Shown: positions 12,798-18,778 of the stretch, one piece after another
Numbering within the stretch: the first letter of the stretch is position 1
Layout: each line of letters opens with the position of its first letter
Source: Thermodesulfobacterium sp. TA1
GTDB lineage: Bacteria > Desulfobacterota > Thermodesulfobacteria > Thermodesulfobacteriales > Thermodesulfobacteriaceae
Assembly: GCF_008630935.1 (NCBI RefSeq)
Contig: NZ_CP043908.1
Span: 1,054,001-1,118,000 of the forward strand
Direction: 5' to 3'
Length of the DNA: 64,000 nucleotides
The notes under the pieces: model-generated
Database searches by the model: none
What the model was told of the DNA's origin: nothing
What the model saw: the letters and a program-made list of their open reading frames with translations, nothing else
Position numbers and translations under genes: made by a program

Positions 12798-12870
12798 GGG
12801 CCGGTAACTCAGTCGGTAGAGTATCGGCCTTTTAAGCCGAGAGTCGCAGGTTCGAGTCCTGCCCGGCCCA
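12798..12870 (+). tRNA. tRNA-Lys (anticodon TTT)
   Basis: Acceptor GGGCCGG/CCGGCCC, anticodon loop CTTTTAA, T arm GCAGG-TTCGAGT-CCTGC, discriminator A. 73 nt; CCA not encoded. Confidence 0.96.
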
Positions 12871-12886
12871 TATAAATAAAATAAGT

Positions 12887-12961
12887 GCCCCCATCGTCTA
12901 GCCAGGTCCAGGACACCGGCCTTTCACGCCGGCGACAGGGGTTCGAATCCCCTTGGGGGCG
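12887..12961 (+). tRNA. tRNA-Glu (anticodon TTC)
   Basis: Acceptor GCCCCCA/TGGGGGC, anticodon stem CCGGC/GCCGG with loop CTTTCAC, T arm AGGGG-TTCGAAT-CCCCT, discriminator G. It is 16 bases after tRNA-Lys and probably co-transcribed with it. A T7 run follows directly (12964-12970), which may help termination. Confidence 0.96.
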
Positions 12962-13010: not shown

Positions 13011-13463
13011 TTACCTTGACTGTTTATGTTTCCAAAATAAATAAACTCCTGTCAACCCAACAAGCCATCCTGCGATTCCAAGGGCAATAAATAGTTTGGT
13101 ATAGGTGGCAACAAGAGGCTTTTTAAACCCCTCTATACTTAAGTCTTCTTTCACTTTTATCGCAACCTCTGCTGCATGAAGCCCGTGCTCTGTTTCTCCT
13201 TGAGCCCTTACCTTCCAAATACCTTTTTTATCAGGCATAAAGCAAAAAATTCCATTTTTATCAGCCCTTGCTTTTTGAAAGGGTATTTTTTCTTCTGACT
13301 CATAAACTTCTATTTCTGCATAATTCATCGGTTCACCACCTGCAAAAAAGAAACTTACACAAACCCCCTTAGCCTCCTCTACCTGATAATTTACTTCATG
13401 AGCAAAAAGCTCTTTTAAAAAACATAAACATAGTAAAACCACCAAAAACAGGATTTTTTTCAA
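13011..13463 (-). CDS. Membrane-anchored periplasmic protein, NikL/CbiL-like
   Basis: 150 residues: an N-terminal signal peptide ending near LFAHEV, a beta-rich periplasmic part (about 20-115) resembling a carboxypeptidase-regulatory/greenling fold with GEPMNYAEIEVY and KNGIFCFMPDKKG, and one C-terminal membrane segment (about 122-142) with a basic tail. This layout matches the small NikL-type proteins that accompany nickel/cobalt uptake, but I cannot identify it firmly. The start is a TTG with GGAGG eight bases upstream. It is the last gene of the 18683-13011 cluster. Confidence 0.65.
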   Translation of the reverse strand: MKKILFLVVLLCLCFLKELFAHEVNYQVEEAKGVCVSFFFAGGEPMNYAEIEVYESEEKIPFQKARADKNGIFCFMPDKKGIWKVRAQGETEHGLHAAEVAIKVKEDLSIEGFKKPLVATYTKLFIALGIAGWLVGLTGVYLFWKHKQSR

Positions 13464-13487
13464 TTTTCTAACCTCCAGAGAAAAATT

Positions 13488-14213
13488 TTAATCCTTTTTC
13501 TGCCAGGTAAGGGAAGTAATAAGCCATAGATAGTCAGCTTTGGGGTCTGAAATTTTTACCTTGTAAAAACAAACCAAGGCATAATACCCTTCTTTCATCT
13601 TAAGTTCTTCAACCTTTATCCTTGCCATACCCTTAGCATCCGTTTTTGCTATTTCTTTATGAAAAGGATTAAAAACGATTACTCCTTCAGCAGGTTTCCC
13701 TTCATATAAAACCTTAACCATCGCTTCGTCTTTCCCTTTATATGGATTTTCCACAAAAACTGGTTCAAGTTTTAAACCTAAGGGTTTGTTTAAAAGGGTT
13801 GAGTCCGCAAAAATCGCTTTGGTTGCCTGAAGGGCATAAAAACTCTCTATTACTTGCAAACCTTGCTTTTGGGCCTCAAGTTTATCCATCCTTTTTCTAC
13901 CTTCTGGGGTAGTAACTAAATAAACTCCTTCCATAGAGGCAAGAATTACTGAGGGCTTTTTCTCAACTGAGAGAACAAGTTGGTTATCAACCACTTCTTT
14001 TTTAAGTTTCACTGAGTTTCCCTTATTATCAAAAACCTTTAACTCTTTTATCCTTCCAGGATCATAAGGTTCAACCTTACTTTTATGACCCCAAAACACC
14101 TTAAACTTTCCGTTGGTTTCTTCTATCCAAAGCATATGACAAAAACCCACGGATACAAACAAAAATATAGCTAAAACTGATAAACCAAAGCTTAAGACTA
14201 TTCTCTTCATCAT
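13488..14213 (-). CDS. DUF4198-domain periplasmic protein (NikK-like)
   Basis: 241 residues with a signal peptide (cleavage after about residue 25, near VGFCHM). It has the DUF4198 pattern: HMLWIEETNGKFKVFWGH at the mature end, a long beta-rich middle, and EGVIVFNPFHKEIAKTDAKG in the C-terminal Ig-like part. DUF4198 proteins are found beside nickel and cobalt transporters and beside TonB receptors, and are thought to handle metal in the periplasm. The mature protein begins with a His, which may matter for metal binding (inference). The start codon directly follows the stop of the permease gene. Confidence 0.75.
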   Translation of the reverse strand: MMKRIVLSFGLSVLAIFLFVSVGFCHMLWIEETNGKFKVFWGHKSKVEPYDPGRIKELKVFDNKGNSVKLKKEVVDNQLVLSVEKKPSVILASMEGVYLVTTPEGRKRMDKLEAQKQGLQVIESFYALQATKAIFADSTLLNKPLGLKLEPVFVENPYKGKDEAMVKVLYEGKPAEGVIVFNPFHKEIAKTDAKGMARIKVEELKMKEGYYALVCFYKVKISDPKADYLWLITSLTWQKKD

Positions 14214-15569
14214 TTACCCCCTTTTGTTTTTTAATTTTTGATTAAACTTAAACTGGTATAAAACAAAACCTACTAAAATAGTTAAAATCCCTGCCAAAAT
14301 GGTTAAAGGCTTAGTTAGGATGGTAAAAATAATCATCCAAAGGTTAGCTAAAATAAAAGCAAAAGCCGGGAAAAAAAATCTTTTTTTAAGTTTCATAAGT
14401 CCAAAAACCGTTAAGCATGCACATAAAGATAAGGTAAAACCTATGTAAAGAAGAAGGGCTTCAAAGGTTGAGGTTAAAACCATAAAAATAGCAATAAGTG
14501 CCTGAAAAATAATAGAAAAAACAGGGGTTTTCTTTTCTGGATGGACTTTTGAAAAGACTTTAAAAAATATTCCATCCCTTGCCATGGCATAATATACTCT
14601 TGGTCCGGCGATTATCATAGCACTTAAAACTGAAAGAAGCCCAAAAGTAATTCCAGCAGTAAAAAGAAAAGAAAGCTTTTCTCCAAAAAGCTTTTCTGCG
14701 GTCTTAGCTCCTATCTCCACAACTCCAGACATTTCTTCCACAGAAAGGGACTTAACATATAAAAGGTTTATTCCGAGATACAAAGCTACTATTATTAAAA
14801 CCCCTAACAACAGGGATAAGGGAATGTTCCTTTGCGGGTTTTTAATTTCCTCTCCTATGTAAGTTGCAGCATTCCAACCACTATACGCATACATAACATA
14901 GATAAGAGAAACAGGAAAACTTAAGCTTAAAATGGCTTCTTTTTTAGGAATTAGACCCTCTATCTCAAAGGTATTTAACCCCTCCTTAGAATACCAAAGC
15001 CCTAATAAAATAAAACCAAAAAGAAAAAGGATTTTAAAAAGGGTTAACCCTGCCTGAAGGTTAGCACCTATCCTAATTCTTTGCACATGAACCAAGGAAA
15101 GAAGTAAAATCACTGAGATGGCTAAAAGTTTTGAGGTTATCTCAAAGGTTTGGAAATGGAAAAGCTCTAAAAAGTATTTTGAGAAAGCAATGGCGGTTGC
15201 TGCGATAGGAGCTGAAAACCCAACTATAAGCGAAATCCATCCAGCAAGAAATCCAAAGACTTCACCAAAGCTCTCTTTTAAAAAGGTATACTCACCTCCT
15301 GCCCGAGGGAACATCCTCCCAAGCTCAGCATAACTGAGAGCCCCAAAAAGGGCTATCAACCCTCCCAAAATCCACACAAGAAGAAGAGCTGCTGGATCTT
15401 TAATCTCTTTTATGATAAACCCTGAGGTAGTAAAAATCCCAGTTCCTATGGTATTTCCCACAACAAGCATTATAGCAGAAAAAAGTCCCACTTCTCTTTT
15501 TAATTGCCATCTTTCTTCTTCGTAAATAGAAATATTTTTCAGTTCAACCAACTCCTCAGATTTCACCAA
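14214..15569 (-). CDS. APC-family amino acid/polyamine permease
   Basis: 451 residues with about 12 hydrophobic segments. The N-terminal GLFSAIMLVVGNTIGTGIF is the APC substrate-binding helix motif, and FPRAGGEYTFLKESFGEVFGFLAGW and YAYSGWNAATYIGEEIKNPQRN are typical of the LAT/YfnA-like group. It should import or exchange an amino acid or related amine across the inner membrane. It overlaps the upstream methylase-like gene by 14 bases. Its place between a TonB receptor and metal-type periplasmic proteins is unusual and suggests it imports the cargo of the cluster. Confidence 0.85.
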   Translation of the reverse strand: MVKSEELVELKNISIYEEERWQLKREVGLFSAIMLVVGNTIGTGIFTTSGFIIKEIKDPAALLLVWILGGLIALFGALSYAELGRMFPRAGGEYTFLKESFGEVFGFLAGWISLIVGFSAPIAATAIAFSKYFLELFHFQTFEITSKLLAISVILLLSLVHVQRIRIGANLQAGLTLFKILFLFGFILLGLWYSKEGLNTFEIEGLIPKKEAILSLSFPVSLIYVMYAYSGWNAATYIGEEIKNPQRNIPLSLLLGVLIIVALYLGINLLYVKSLSVEEMSGVVEIGAKTAEKLFGEKLSFLFTAGITFGLLSVLSAMIIAGPRVYYAMARDGIFFKVFSKVHPEKKTPVFSIIFQALIAIFMVLTSTFEALLLYIGFTLSLCACLTVFGLMKLKKRFFFPAFAFILANLWMIIFTILTKPLTILAGILTILVGFVLYQFKFNQKLKNKRG

Positions 15570-16377
15570 AATCTCCTATATAAACCAAGTATTCAAAAGG
15601 AAGCTTAATCCCTTTAATTTTTTCATAAATGTCTTCAAAGGTTCCTGCTATGACCCTTTCTTTTTCCTTATAACCTGCATAAAGCACAAAAATTACCTGA
15701 GTTTTGGGAGAATAATATTTTTCAATCTTTTTTAAAACCTCGGCTATGTCCTTTATTCTCATGGTGAAAAGAACAAGGTTTGTCCTTGTTTTAGCAAGGC
15801 TTTCAAGGTCAGAAAAACCAGAAGCCAGGGTTATACTTAACGTCTTTCCCCCTGTAAGACTTTTTTTAATGGCTGCGTTTGCAGCGTTAAAAGAGCTAAC
15901 CCCAGGAACAATTTCTGGGTTCAAATCTTTAAAAGCCTCCATATACCAGATATGAGGACCATAAACGGTGGGATCTCCTTCATCAAGCACCGCTACTACT
16001 TTACCTTGTTTTACGGCAGTTCTTACTATCTTAGTTATCTTTTCAAGCTCTTTCTTTTTTTCTTCTCTGTTAAAATCATGGGGTCTTATTTCAGATGAGG
16101 AAATTTCTTTTTCTTTTCGATAAAAAAGATGAAAAATCCCAAACCCTGCGTCATAAACCTCCTTTCCTTTGATTAAATCTTTCATCCTTTCGCAACTCCA
16201 CTTACTGCAAAATACAATGTCAGCTTTCTGGATAACCTCATAAGCCCTTAAAGTAAGATTATCAAGGTCTCCCACACCGGTACTAACAAGATAAAGTCTT
16301 CCTTCTGCGCAAGCTTTGGAAAAACTGAAAATCAAAAACAAAAGGCTTAAAAGGAAATTTTTTCTAAGTTTTTTCAT
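15556..16377 (-). CDS. Tetrapyrrole (precorrin/porphyrin) methylase-like protein with signal peptide
   Basis: 273 residues. After a clear Sec signal (KKLRKN, then a hydrophobic core, cleavage near KACA) comes a complete TP-methylase fold. It shows LYLVSTGVGDLDNLTLRA (GxGPGDxxLLT type) at about 28-45, EGDPTVYGP in the middle and EIVPGVSSFNAANAAI later. Cytoplasmic relatives (CobI, CbiF, CobA) transfer methyl from SAM to corrin or sirohaem precursors. An exported copy is odd because SAM is not known in the periplasm, so it may bind a tetrapyrrole rather than methylate it. It lies 17 bases downstream of the TonB receptor. Confidence 0.8.
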   Translation of the reverse strand: MKKLRKNFLLSLLFLIFSFSKACAEGRLYLVSTGVGDLDNLTLRAYEVIQKADIVFCSKWSCERMKDLIKGKEVYDAGFGIFHLFYRKEKEISSSEIRPHDFNREEKKKELEKITKIVRTAVKQGKVVAVLDEGDPTVYGPHIWYMEAFKDLNPEIVPGVSSFNAANAAIKKSLTGGKTLSITLASGFSDLESLAKTRTNLVLFTMRIKDIAEVLKKIEKYYSPKTQVIFVLYAGYKEKERVIAGTFEDIYEKIKGIKLPFEYLVYIGDFGEI

Positions 16378-16394
16378 AACCTACCTCCACTTTT

Positions 16395-18683
16395 TTAAAA
16401 ATTAAAGGATATTGAGCTAAACACAGTAAAAGGCACCCCTGGATAATAACTGTTAGAAGTACCAAAAATGTATCTTCTGTCAAAAAGGTTGTAAATCTCA
16501 AGGCTTAATTTTATGTTTTTAAGCCTAAGACTTTTTATTTCTTCTTTGTTATAAGAAACTATAAAATCAAAAACTTCATATCCTGATACTTTTTCTGTGC
16601 GTTGTAAATCTCCATAATAACTACCTACATACCTAAACCTTGGGGTTATTTCAAACCCTTTGTATCTTGCTATAAGTCCTGTGGTTAACATTCTTTCTGG
16701 TACACCAACCACCTGTTTTCCTTCAACAGAATAGCGAATTCCACCACTTACGATATCTTCATCATATTTCATTTTTACATAAGAAGGATTAAAGAAAAAG
16801 GAGATTCTATCCGTCAGATAGAACGTTGAAGCAAGCTCAAACCCATATCCCCTTGCCTTGCCGATAAAGGTATTAAAGCTTACCGGTCTTCCAGTTTGAG
16901 GGTCAATCAAAGGCTGGGACGGATTATCGGGATCTTTCCATCCCGGAGTAAAAGGAGTGTTTAAATTCTTATGTTTAGAAAAGTATATGGTGGGATATAA
17001 CTCAAACCTTTGTGTTCTAATCCTAAGCCCCAAATCCCAATTATAAGTTTCTTCACATTGGTAATCGTTAAAAAGGTCATCTAAGGTTATACCCATTTTT
17101 TTGAACTTATCATAAAGCCGATAATAAAGGTTAATGAGAGGCATATACATGTATGGTGTTTGAAAGGTTTTACCAAAGCTTGTGTAAGCCTCTATCTTAT
17201 CACTAAAGGCATAAGAAATACCAAAAGAAGGAACCCAGGAAGAATAGCTTCTTCCACCATAATCAAGCCTTGGTTCCCTTTCTAAATATGGTGTTGTTCC
17301 ATTATATTTAGTAATATACCCTTCGTTTTCACCGTCCTTTTTCTTTATATAAGTTATTCCTGCCTGCCAGTTTAATTTGCCAAGGTTTCCTGAAAGCTTT
17401 AAATACGGACTTGAAGAATAGCCATCTGAAATGCTTTTAGTAAACCTCCCCCATCCGATAAAAGTCAAACTACCATTAGCATTTAACCAGTAATTTTTTG
17501 AGGGTCTGTCATCCCACTCTTGACGCTCATAATGATAACCTAAAACCCCTTTAACAAGCCTAAAATCAAAAACAAGCTCCCCCAAAACTCCTTTACGTGT
17601 AACTTCCCATCCACTCCAGCTTACTCCTGGTTTAGGTGGTCCTGAAGGACCAGAGATTCTTGAACTCCCACTCCAATCCTCTTTTTCCTCTATCCTGTAG
17701 TAAGGTTTTATCTGAAGCACAAGACTATTTAATAACTTAACATCTATAAAACCGTAATAATCATAGTTTGTCCATCCAAGCTTTTGATACTTGTAATAAT
17801 ACCAGTCTTTCGTAGTATTACCTGTAAAGATTTCATTGTAATCTAACCATCTATCTTTTTTAGCATTTTGATAAGAAAGGGTAGCATATTTGTGATGTTC
17901 AATATCATTGTAGTTTACCCAGAATTTTATATTAATCATCTCTCCTATTGGTTGAACCAAAGTAAAGTTTACATTATTTCTTGGACCAATTTTTCCTTTA
18001 CCTCTCCATTTATCTGCTTCAGTATATGAATAGGACAGAGAAATTTTTGTCCCTAAGGGATTAATTTTTCCAGTATCTAACCTTGCAAAAGTCTTGGTGT
18101 AGTCATTCATACCTAAGCCTTGTTTAAACTCAAAACCAAACCTATCTTTTGCCCATTTGGGTTTTACCTCAACCGTTCCTCCCCTTGTTCCAGCCCCTGT
18201 CCCAAGGTTAACAGGAATAACCCCTTTATAAACATCAATCGCTTCAATATTATCTAAATCAAAGATGTATTCTCTTGGACCGATTGGGTTTCCTCCGTAA
18301 ACAGGCACCCCTTCAACAGACATAGTCCCCAAGGAACCACTTACCCCTCTTATGGTAATAGTACGTTGAGTAGAGGAAATACCTGTTGGATCAGGACTCT
18401 CAAAACGGACTCCAGGTAAAAAATTTAAAATGGACCACACATTACTACTTCCCTTTTCCCCAGATAATTCAATTCCCTTTTTAGTGATTCCAATTCCTGT
18501 ATAAACCGTTTCTGCGGTTTCTTTAGTAGGAGTAATAATTTTCTCTCCCTCAACCACAACCTCAGGTAGCTCTTCAGCCTTTTTAAATTTTTCTTCTTCT
18601 TTTATCTCCTCTCCAAAGGCTGAAGAAACTAAAAATCCTAAAATAGCCAAACTTATATAAAAAATTCTTTTATTTTTACCCAT
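16395..18683 (-). CDS. TonB-dependent outer-membrane receptor
   Basis: 762 residues. Signal peptide about 1-24 (LVSSAFGEE), a TonB-box-like ELPEVVVEG at about 38-46, a plug domain with LNFLPGVRFESP and ITIRGVSGSLGTMSVEGVPVYG, and a long beta-barrel rich in aromatic strands ending in the outer-membrane terminal Phe (SSISFNF). It imports a scarce nutrient such as a siderophore, cobalamin, haem or metal chelate. The ligand is not readable from sequence. It heads the operon with the exported tetrapyrrole-methylase-like protein. Confidence 0.92.
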   Translation of the reverse strand: MGKNKRIFYISLAILGFLVSSAFGEEIKEEEKFKKAEELPEVVVEGEKIITPTKETAETVYTGIGITKKGIELSGEKGSSNVWSILNFLPGVRFESPDPTGISSTQRTITIRGVSGSLGTMSVEGVPVYGGNPIGPREYIFDLDNIEAIDVYKGVIPVNLGTGAGTRGGTVEVKPKWAKDRFGFEFKQGLGMNDYTKTFARLDTGKINPLGTKISLSYSYTEADKWRGKGKIGPRNNVNFTLVQPIGEMINIKFWVNYNDIEHHKYATLSYQNAKKDRWLDYNEIFTGNTTKDWYYYKYQKLGWTNYDYYGFIDVKLLNSLVLQIKPYYRIEEKEDWSGSSRISGPSGPPKPGVSWSGWEVTRKGVLGELVFDFRLVKGVLGYHYERQEWDDRPSKNYWLNANGSLTFIGWGRFTKSISDGYSSSPYLKLSGNLGKLNWQAGITYIKKKDGENEGYITKYNGTTPYLEREPRLDYGGRSYSSWVPSFGISYAFSDKIEAYTSFGKTFQTPYMYMPLINLYYRLYDKFKKMGITLDDLFNDYQCEETYNWDLGLRIRTQRFELYPTIYFSKHKNLNTPFTPGWKDPDNPSQPLIDPQTGRPVSFNTFIGKARGYGFELASTFYLTDRISFFFNPSYVKMKYDEDIVSGGIRYSVEGKQVVGVPERMLTTGLIARYKGFEITPRFRYVGSYYGDLQRTEKVSGYEVFDFIVSYNKEEIKSLRLKNIKLSLEIYNLFDRRYIFGTSNSYYPGVPFTVFSSISFNF

Positions 18684-18749: not shown

Positions 18750-18778
18750 TTAGTATCATAAATTTTAGAAATTGTCAA
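18750..18778 (-). promoter_or_regulatory. Candidate promoter of the TonB receptor cluster
   Basis: Minus strand TTGACA (18773-18778), 17-base spacer, TACTAA (18750-18755), about 65 bases before the receptor ATG. No recognisable Fur box or cobalamin riboswitch was seen nearby. Confidence 0.45.

Follow-up and report, generated by a model that had tools for sequence, protein, structure and literature searches.

What an exported protein with the fold of a tetrapyrrole methylase does in an operon headed by a TonB-dependent receptor (TBDT) is the question raised by five genes of the thermophilic sulfate reducer Thermodesulfobacterium sp. TA1. They lie in the window, by which we mean the whole stretch of 64,000 nucleotides that was analyzed (contig NZ_CP043908.1, positions 1,054,001 to 1,118,000), within a genome of 1.83 Mb in one contig. 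The five genes belong to a unit that is conserved in the genus and recurs in rearranged form across phyla, and by a modest balance of probability this unit would be an operon for the acquisition of a nickel (possibly cobalt) chelate. The genes and a promoter-like element were located as follows.

16395..18683, minus strand: TBDT, first gene of the operon; Pfam Plug (40 bits) and barrel (82 bits), over cut-off.
15556..16377, minus strand: exported TP_methylase-fold protein (TPM); Pfam TP_methylase, 142 bits (cut-off 27.8).
14214..15569, minus strand: APC permease; Pfam AA_permease_2, 181 bits; similar to LAT/b0,+ exchangers.
13488..14213, minus strand: periplasmic protein of the DUF4198/NikK type; Pfam DUF4198, 51.2 bits (cut-off 34).
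13011..13463, minus strand: small NikL-like protein with a signal peptide, a predicted N-terminal histidine and a C-terminal membrane anchor.
18750..18778, minus strand: promoter-like TTGACA-N17-TACTAA upstream of the receptor gene, read from the sequence; its -10 part is weak.

The order of the genes and their close packing on one strand, described in an earlier note on this DNA, were confirmed by the coordinates of the open reading frames. From the TBDT to the NikL-like gene, a gap of 17 bp is followed by a 14-base overlap (TPM and APC), an abutment of the DUF4198 gene on the APC stop codon and a gap of 24 bp, a spacing that is operon-like. Of the families named in the earlier note, TBDT, TP_methylase, APC and DUF4198 stood, but the NikL-like assignment fell short: the best NCBIfam match of the small protein was the NikL family NF058648 with 48.5 bits against a cut-off of 100, and its match to DUF4198 was partial (24.9 bits, below the cut-off of 34). 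For the TBDT, all siderophore and heme receptor models scored below cut-off, with TIGR01783 (TonB-siderophor) as best curated model at 126.4 versus 223.5 bits. The best-scoring subfamily of the APC permease was TIGR00911 (L-type amino acid transporter), also below cut-off (236.3 versus 701.8 bits), and its nearest solved structures were system xc-, b0,+AT and y+LAT. A similar promoter-like element, TTGACA-N16/17-TATAAA, was present at several orthologous loci. Open reading frame and Pfam scans of the window genes surrounding the cluster revealed no M, Q or O transporter gene.

The arrangement is conserved within the genus. The full set of five genes in unchanged order was found in four other genomes (G020; G021; G023, Thermodesulfobacterium hveragerdense, L107; and G032, T. 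thermophilum, L109); the genes upstream of the operon vary among these four, and in G021 both flanks vary. Orthologs of the TBDT head the operon in these genomes and in G027 and G029, with the gene orders TBDT-TPM-APC-DUF4198 in G027 and TBDT, CooC-like ATPase, TPM, APC in G029. The ATPase inserted between TBDT and TPM in G029 (L038:3413-4192) was assigned from its sequence to the type that serves nickel insertion into CO dehydrogenase. In G024 there is no exported TPM, and a reduced TBDT-DUF4198-NikL trio without the APC is retained (L204:4948-7997, G024:C12). Because both genes are missing there, TPM and APC appear to have been gained or lost together in this genus. No exported TPM was found in other genera of the order, and a search of a plasmid collection with the TPM gave no match.

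Beyond the genus, exported TPMs were found in Desulfobacterota, Planctomycetota, Chromatiales, beta-proteobacteria, Spirochaetes and cable bacteria. A search of the phylum yielded TPM relatives in 26 of 395 genomes (E<=1e-30), and a search of named genomes yielded 138 relatives, from which 80 loci were kept. Sampling was biased to relatives with two search patterns in common, and many of the contigs are short; all counts given here therefore apply to this sample only. TBDT, APC, DUF4198 and NikL genes recurred next to exported TPMs, often with CbiM/Q/O, ExbB/D or FmdE, and rearranged forms of the cluster occurred in several phyla, among them a TBDT-TPM-DUF4198-APC-NikL cluster in Ca. Electrothrix (L138, L160). 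The APC accompanies a TBDT in 34 of 36 signal-bearing loci, and TPM and APC overlap by 4 bases in eleven distant loci. Around 20 cytosolic TPMs taken as controls (L040, L175-L193), matches to APC, DUF4198 and NikL were all absent. Because the order recurs in the genus, is rearranged across phyla and is absent around the controls, the five-gene arrangement is not due to chance. The earlier proposal of one conserved functional unit was thus upheld, and homologs scattered without conserved clustering, which would have spoken against it, were not what the comparison across genomes revealed.

The link to nickel or cobalt, also proposed earlier, was borne out by NikK histidines, CbiMQO neighbors and NikR operators. 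The window DUF4198 protein aligns with the solved NikK structure 9gcb starting at mature residue 1 (E=4.1e-5), and two of its histidines, His1 and His18 in the numbering of the predicted mature form, occupy the nickel-ligand positions of the 9gcb family. Across the DUF4198 alignment the first of these never varies and the second hardly does. A related DUF4198 protein binds Ni2+ via His1 and His18 with a Kd of 18 nM (PMC12537917). In the NikL alignment (A6), His21 and His92 are invariant. An automatic pattern detected a histidine directly after the signal peptide in 46 of 55 DUF4198 neighbors and 20 of 30 NikL neighbors; on reading, the remainder were mostly pattern misses or cut open reading frames, so nearly all DUF4198 and most NikL proteins have this residue. 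The exact NikR-type site GTRTTAC-N13-GTAAYAC was found upstream of six Planctomycetota TPM operons, and a control with permuted half-sites gave 0 sites from 150 permutations in 1.2 Mb. Near-exact sites occurred at L117 (one mismatch) and, in Spirochaetes, at L170 (one mismatch) and L173 (two mismatches). Of those Planctomycetota genomes, four were searched for NikR genes and all four have one, as does the window genome, but the assembly of Spirochaete L170 yielded none. At several Planctomycetota loci (L112, L130, L131, L134) a DUF1559 pseudopilin-type gene lies between operator and TPM. CbiM/Q/O genes were joined to clusters at L079, L085, L131, L137, L150, L170 and L173, in L131 and L137 together with TPM and DUF4198. 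On these grounds, the metal with the strongest support is nickel (or cobalt).

The window genome also encodes a canonical nikKMLQO system elsewhere (L194:9139-12578, G000:C1 ~950138-953577), which contains its sole CbiM match (950939) and a NikL scoring 135 bits. Because this complete system is present, the NikK/NikL-type pair of the window would be a second copy. Extra or orphan NikK and NikL copies without a known role or context were noted by Zhang 2009 (PMC2667541).

The N-terminus of the window TPM is a Sec-type signal peptide, MKKLRKNFLLSLLFLIFSFSKACA|EG. A comparable hydrophobic signal is found in most relatives, and several tandem forms carry lipoboxes, in agreement with the envelope location postulated in the earlier note. 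The AlphaFold model of the TPM (pLDDT 91.5) was used for fold comparison, with CysG and CbiF as best Protein Data Bank (PDB) matches (TM ~0.7); pocket residues were judged from the sequence. The motifs GxGxGD, GDPxxYG and PGxS are retained in the window TPM, and GxGxGD, GDPxxY and PGxS in nearly all exported domains, which indicates that the protein may bind S-adenosylmethionine (SAM). Neither histidine nor cysteine is among the invariant positions of the TPM alignment. The score with precorrin-4 C11-methyltransferase (CbiF/CobM) was 84.1 bits and did not reach the cut-off of 259.65, and the protein stayed far under every cut-off for precorrin and uroporphyrinogen methyltransferases. The window genome has two further TP_methylase genes and no more, which by length and matches are probably a CobA-type fusion and RsmI. 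Because only these two are present, the exported TPM is no leftover of a cobalamin pathway.

In a tree of 66 exported and cytosolic TPMs, the cytosolic label needed 2 changes compared with 18 in shuffles, and the exported family was largely separate; the tree contains one weak split and long branches that meet. The exported TPMs thus appear to form a family largely apart from the cytosolic ones, and strict monophyly goes beyond what the tree supports. Tandem TPM domains occur within one chain (e.g. L074, L079, L138), and L077 encodes a DUF4198-TPM fusion. A further TPM is fused behind molybdopterin-oxidoreductase-type domains, beside CcsA/ResB-like genes of cytochrome c biogenesis (L090:2163-3911).

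In the mechanism that we propose, the TBDT would take a metal-organic chelate across the outer membrane. The exported TPM would act on the organic ligand in the periplasm, in the simplest case by a SAM-dependent methyl transfer that loosens the metal. The NikK- and NikL-type proteins, both of which are predicted to have a histidine at the N-terminus, would accept the freed Ni(II) and hand it to NikMQO, the transporter that this genome encodes at a distance of ~113 kb. Across the inner membrane, the APC exchanger may move a small molecule resembling an amino acid; for this role we favor the spent ligand over SAM and S-adenosylhomocysteine (SAH). Every catalytic and transport step, as well as the identity of the ligand, we infer from sequence. 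Four Planctomycetota genomes with an exported TPM were checked, and none yielded a cluster-type APC. Because of this absence, and because the APC otherwise goes with the TBDT, its most plausible role is in the handling of the ligand or of a product made from it; exchange of SAM and SAH draws support from the conserved TPM-APC adjacency with its 4-base overlap. The idea of the APC as universal SAM exporter for exported TPMs was weakened by the same Planctomycetota genomes. That a periplasmic SAM-using methyltransferase, fed across the inner membrane, frees nickel by methylating the ligand of the imported chelate is a possibility that we put forward tentatively.

Members from beta-proteobacteria provide the strongest hint that the TPM modifies an organic ligand. 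TPMs without a signal peptide from this group nest inside the exported set of the tree, so the signal was probably lost. A cluster-type APC was found in none of five such genomes searched (best match 33% identity or none, compared with 51-64% in cluster-bearing genomes). Two of them, Janthinobacterium and Duganella, carry a convergent Dpp/Nik-type ABC importer; the best model for the binding protein of the Janthinobacterium importer (L164) is NikA, with 133 bits, below cut-off. The presence of an ABC importer together with the loss of signal and APC, a coupling that rests on two closely related loci, suggests that the TPM acts on an imported chelate wherever this arrives, in the periplasm or in the cytosol.

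Several observations weigh against a nickel-chelate operon of this kind. We know of no source of SAM in the periplasm. No NikR operator was found in the window genus, by scanning or by comparison with the nikK promoter, and sites upstream of TBDTs outside Planctomycetota and Spirochaetes were at chance level (mean best mismatch 4.63 versus 4.65 in controls, 48 loci). The small window protein lies below the NikL cut-off, as given above. In Planctomycetota the TPM is exported, but TBDT and APC do not adjoin it, so the full route is not universal. Finally, CbiM-type permeases near clusters score with cobalt-named models, and the metal is possibly cobalt instead of nickel.

The lack of a known SAM supply and of an evident dedicated SAM exporter in those Planctomycetota genomes would fit a catalytically dead TPM that acts as a binding protein in the periplasm, holding the chelate in the old tetrapyrrole/SAM cleft and presenting it to NikK and NikL. 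We regard this as doubtful: retention of the three SAM motifs in the great majority of exported domains would be unexpected if SAM binding had been dropped, and invariant positions without histidine or cysteine make direct metal binding unlikely.

Scavenging of cobalt or corrinoids instead of nickel is unlikely. TPM relatives function in cobalamin synthesis, the window genome with its two other TP_methylase genes probably makes no B12 itself, and the cobalt-named CbiM matches point the same way; some NikK/NikL systems have been recruited for cobalt (Zhang 2009, PMC2667541). Against this stand the NikR-type operators in Planctomycetota and Spirochaetes, the L131 permease, which is paired with NikL and not CbiN, and a riboswitch search of the window, which returned three tRNAs only and no B12 riboswitch. 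Two of the tRNA genes (window 12798-12961) lie on the opposite strand directly past the 3' end of the operon.

The earlier note had envisaged a full uptake route for a chelate of a metal with a tetrapyrrole or an amino acid, in which the APC carries the chelate across the inner membrane. The fold and best PDB relatives of the TPM are those of tetrapyrrole methylases, and the APC occurs almost exclusively with a TBDT. A tetrapyrrole ligand, however, is suggested by the family name only, given the scores far under all tetrapyrrole-enzyme cut-offs. Inward carriage by the APC fits poorly with its nearest solved relatives, which are amino acid exchangers, and with its absence from the four Planctomycetota genomes. 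A metal-tetrapyrrole is far bigger than the known cargo of such exchangers. Both parts of the proposal thus lost ground, and we consider the route quite improbable. An ordinary ferric-siderophore uptake operon, to which the best curated receptor model and the appearance of DUF4198 genes in the literature on iron and zinc responses of Caulobacter might point, is very improbable in view of the NikR-type sites, CbiMQO neighbors and NikK/NikL proteins and because genes for a ferric-siderophore ABC transporter or reductase do not recur in the neighborhood.

Other genes were observed near exported TPMs. A large membrane protein combining MFS and spermidine-synthase parts (with TPR as well in L158:13213-16455) lies near the cluster at L158, L080, L148, L149, L150 and L153 and could be another family able to use a SAM-derived substrate. 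FmdE-family proteins, exported by appearance, adjoin the TPM in some loci (L071:2542-3276, L083:8355-9038 and others), sometimes together with what we take to be a tungstate-type binding protein. In Chromatiales and Thauera, a LysR-type regulator gene is located upstream of a TBDT-TPM-APC trio (L106:909-1862 and seven further loci).

Among known systems, a periplasmic cobaltochelatase of Desulfovibrio, CbiK-P, is reportedly a tetrapyrrole-linked protein near a TonB receptor; it belongs to a chelatase family, and Pfam gave no match to a family of this kind for any of the five proteins of the cluster. The nickel transporter of the energy-coupling factor type NikKMLQO (Rodionov 2004, PMC545781; Zhang 2009, PMC2667541) has NikK (DUF4198) and NikL-type proteins in common with the cluster, and some TPM clusters adjoin CbiM/NikM, Q and O genes; the window cluster lacks M, Q and O and has TBDT, exported TPM and APC instead. 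The nickel-binding DUF4198 protein 9gcb shares the predicted N-terminal and second histidine with the window protein, and its description mentions TonB and NikR neighbors and, by the terms searched, no tetrapyrrole methylase (PMC12537917). The methylases CbiF/CobM and CobA/CysG share fold and SAM motifs with the window TPM, which differs in being exported, below every functional cut-off, in another gene context and, save for splits with weak support, on its own side of the tree. Coupling of an outer membrane receptor to nickel uptake genes likewise characterizes the TBDT and Nik/Opp/Dpp ABC candidates of cable bacteria, none of whose TonB receptors was related to known nickel receptors; that study does not describe the cluster of Ca. 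Electrothrix (PMC11247825). The earlier view that no system of this make-up has been described agrees with our literature search, which turned up no paper on an exported TPM, nor on its combination with TonB, nickel or DUF4198; most subscription journals lay outside it, and such absence is no proof. Whereas NikK/NikL, NikMQO, nickel TBDTs and cytosolic TPMs are already known, an exported enzyme family at the center of nickel or cobalt acquisition is apparently undescribed.

Nickel hydrogenases and CO dehydrogenases are enzymes on which many bacteria rely, and to our knowledge the passage of nickel chelates through the outer membrane of Gram-negative anaerobes is poorly known. The conserved unit offers candidate receptor, processing and hand-over proteins together. 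Should the TPM prove active, SAM chemistry would be taking place in the periplasm, which is unusual, and ligand methylation, if true, would be a mechanism of metal release unlike the reduction or hydrolysis of siderophores.

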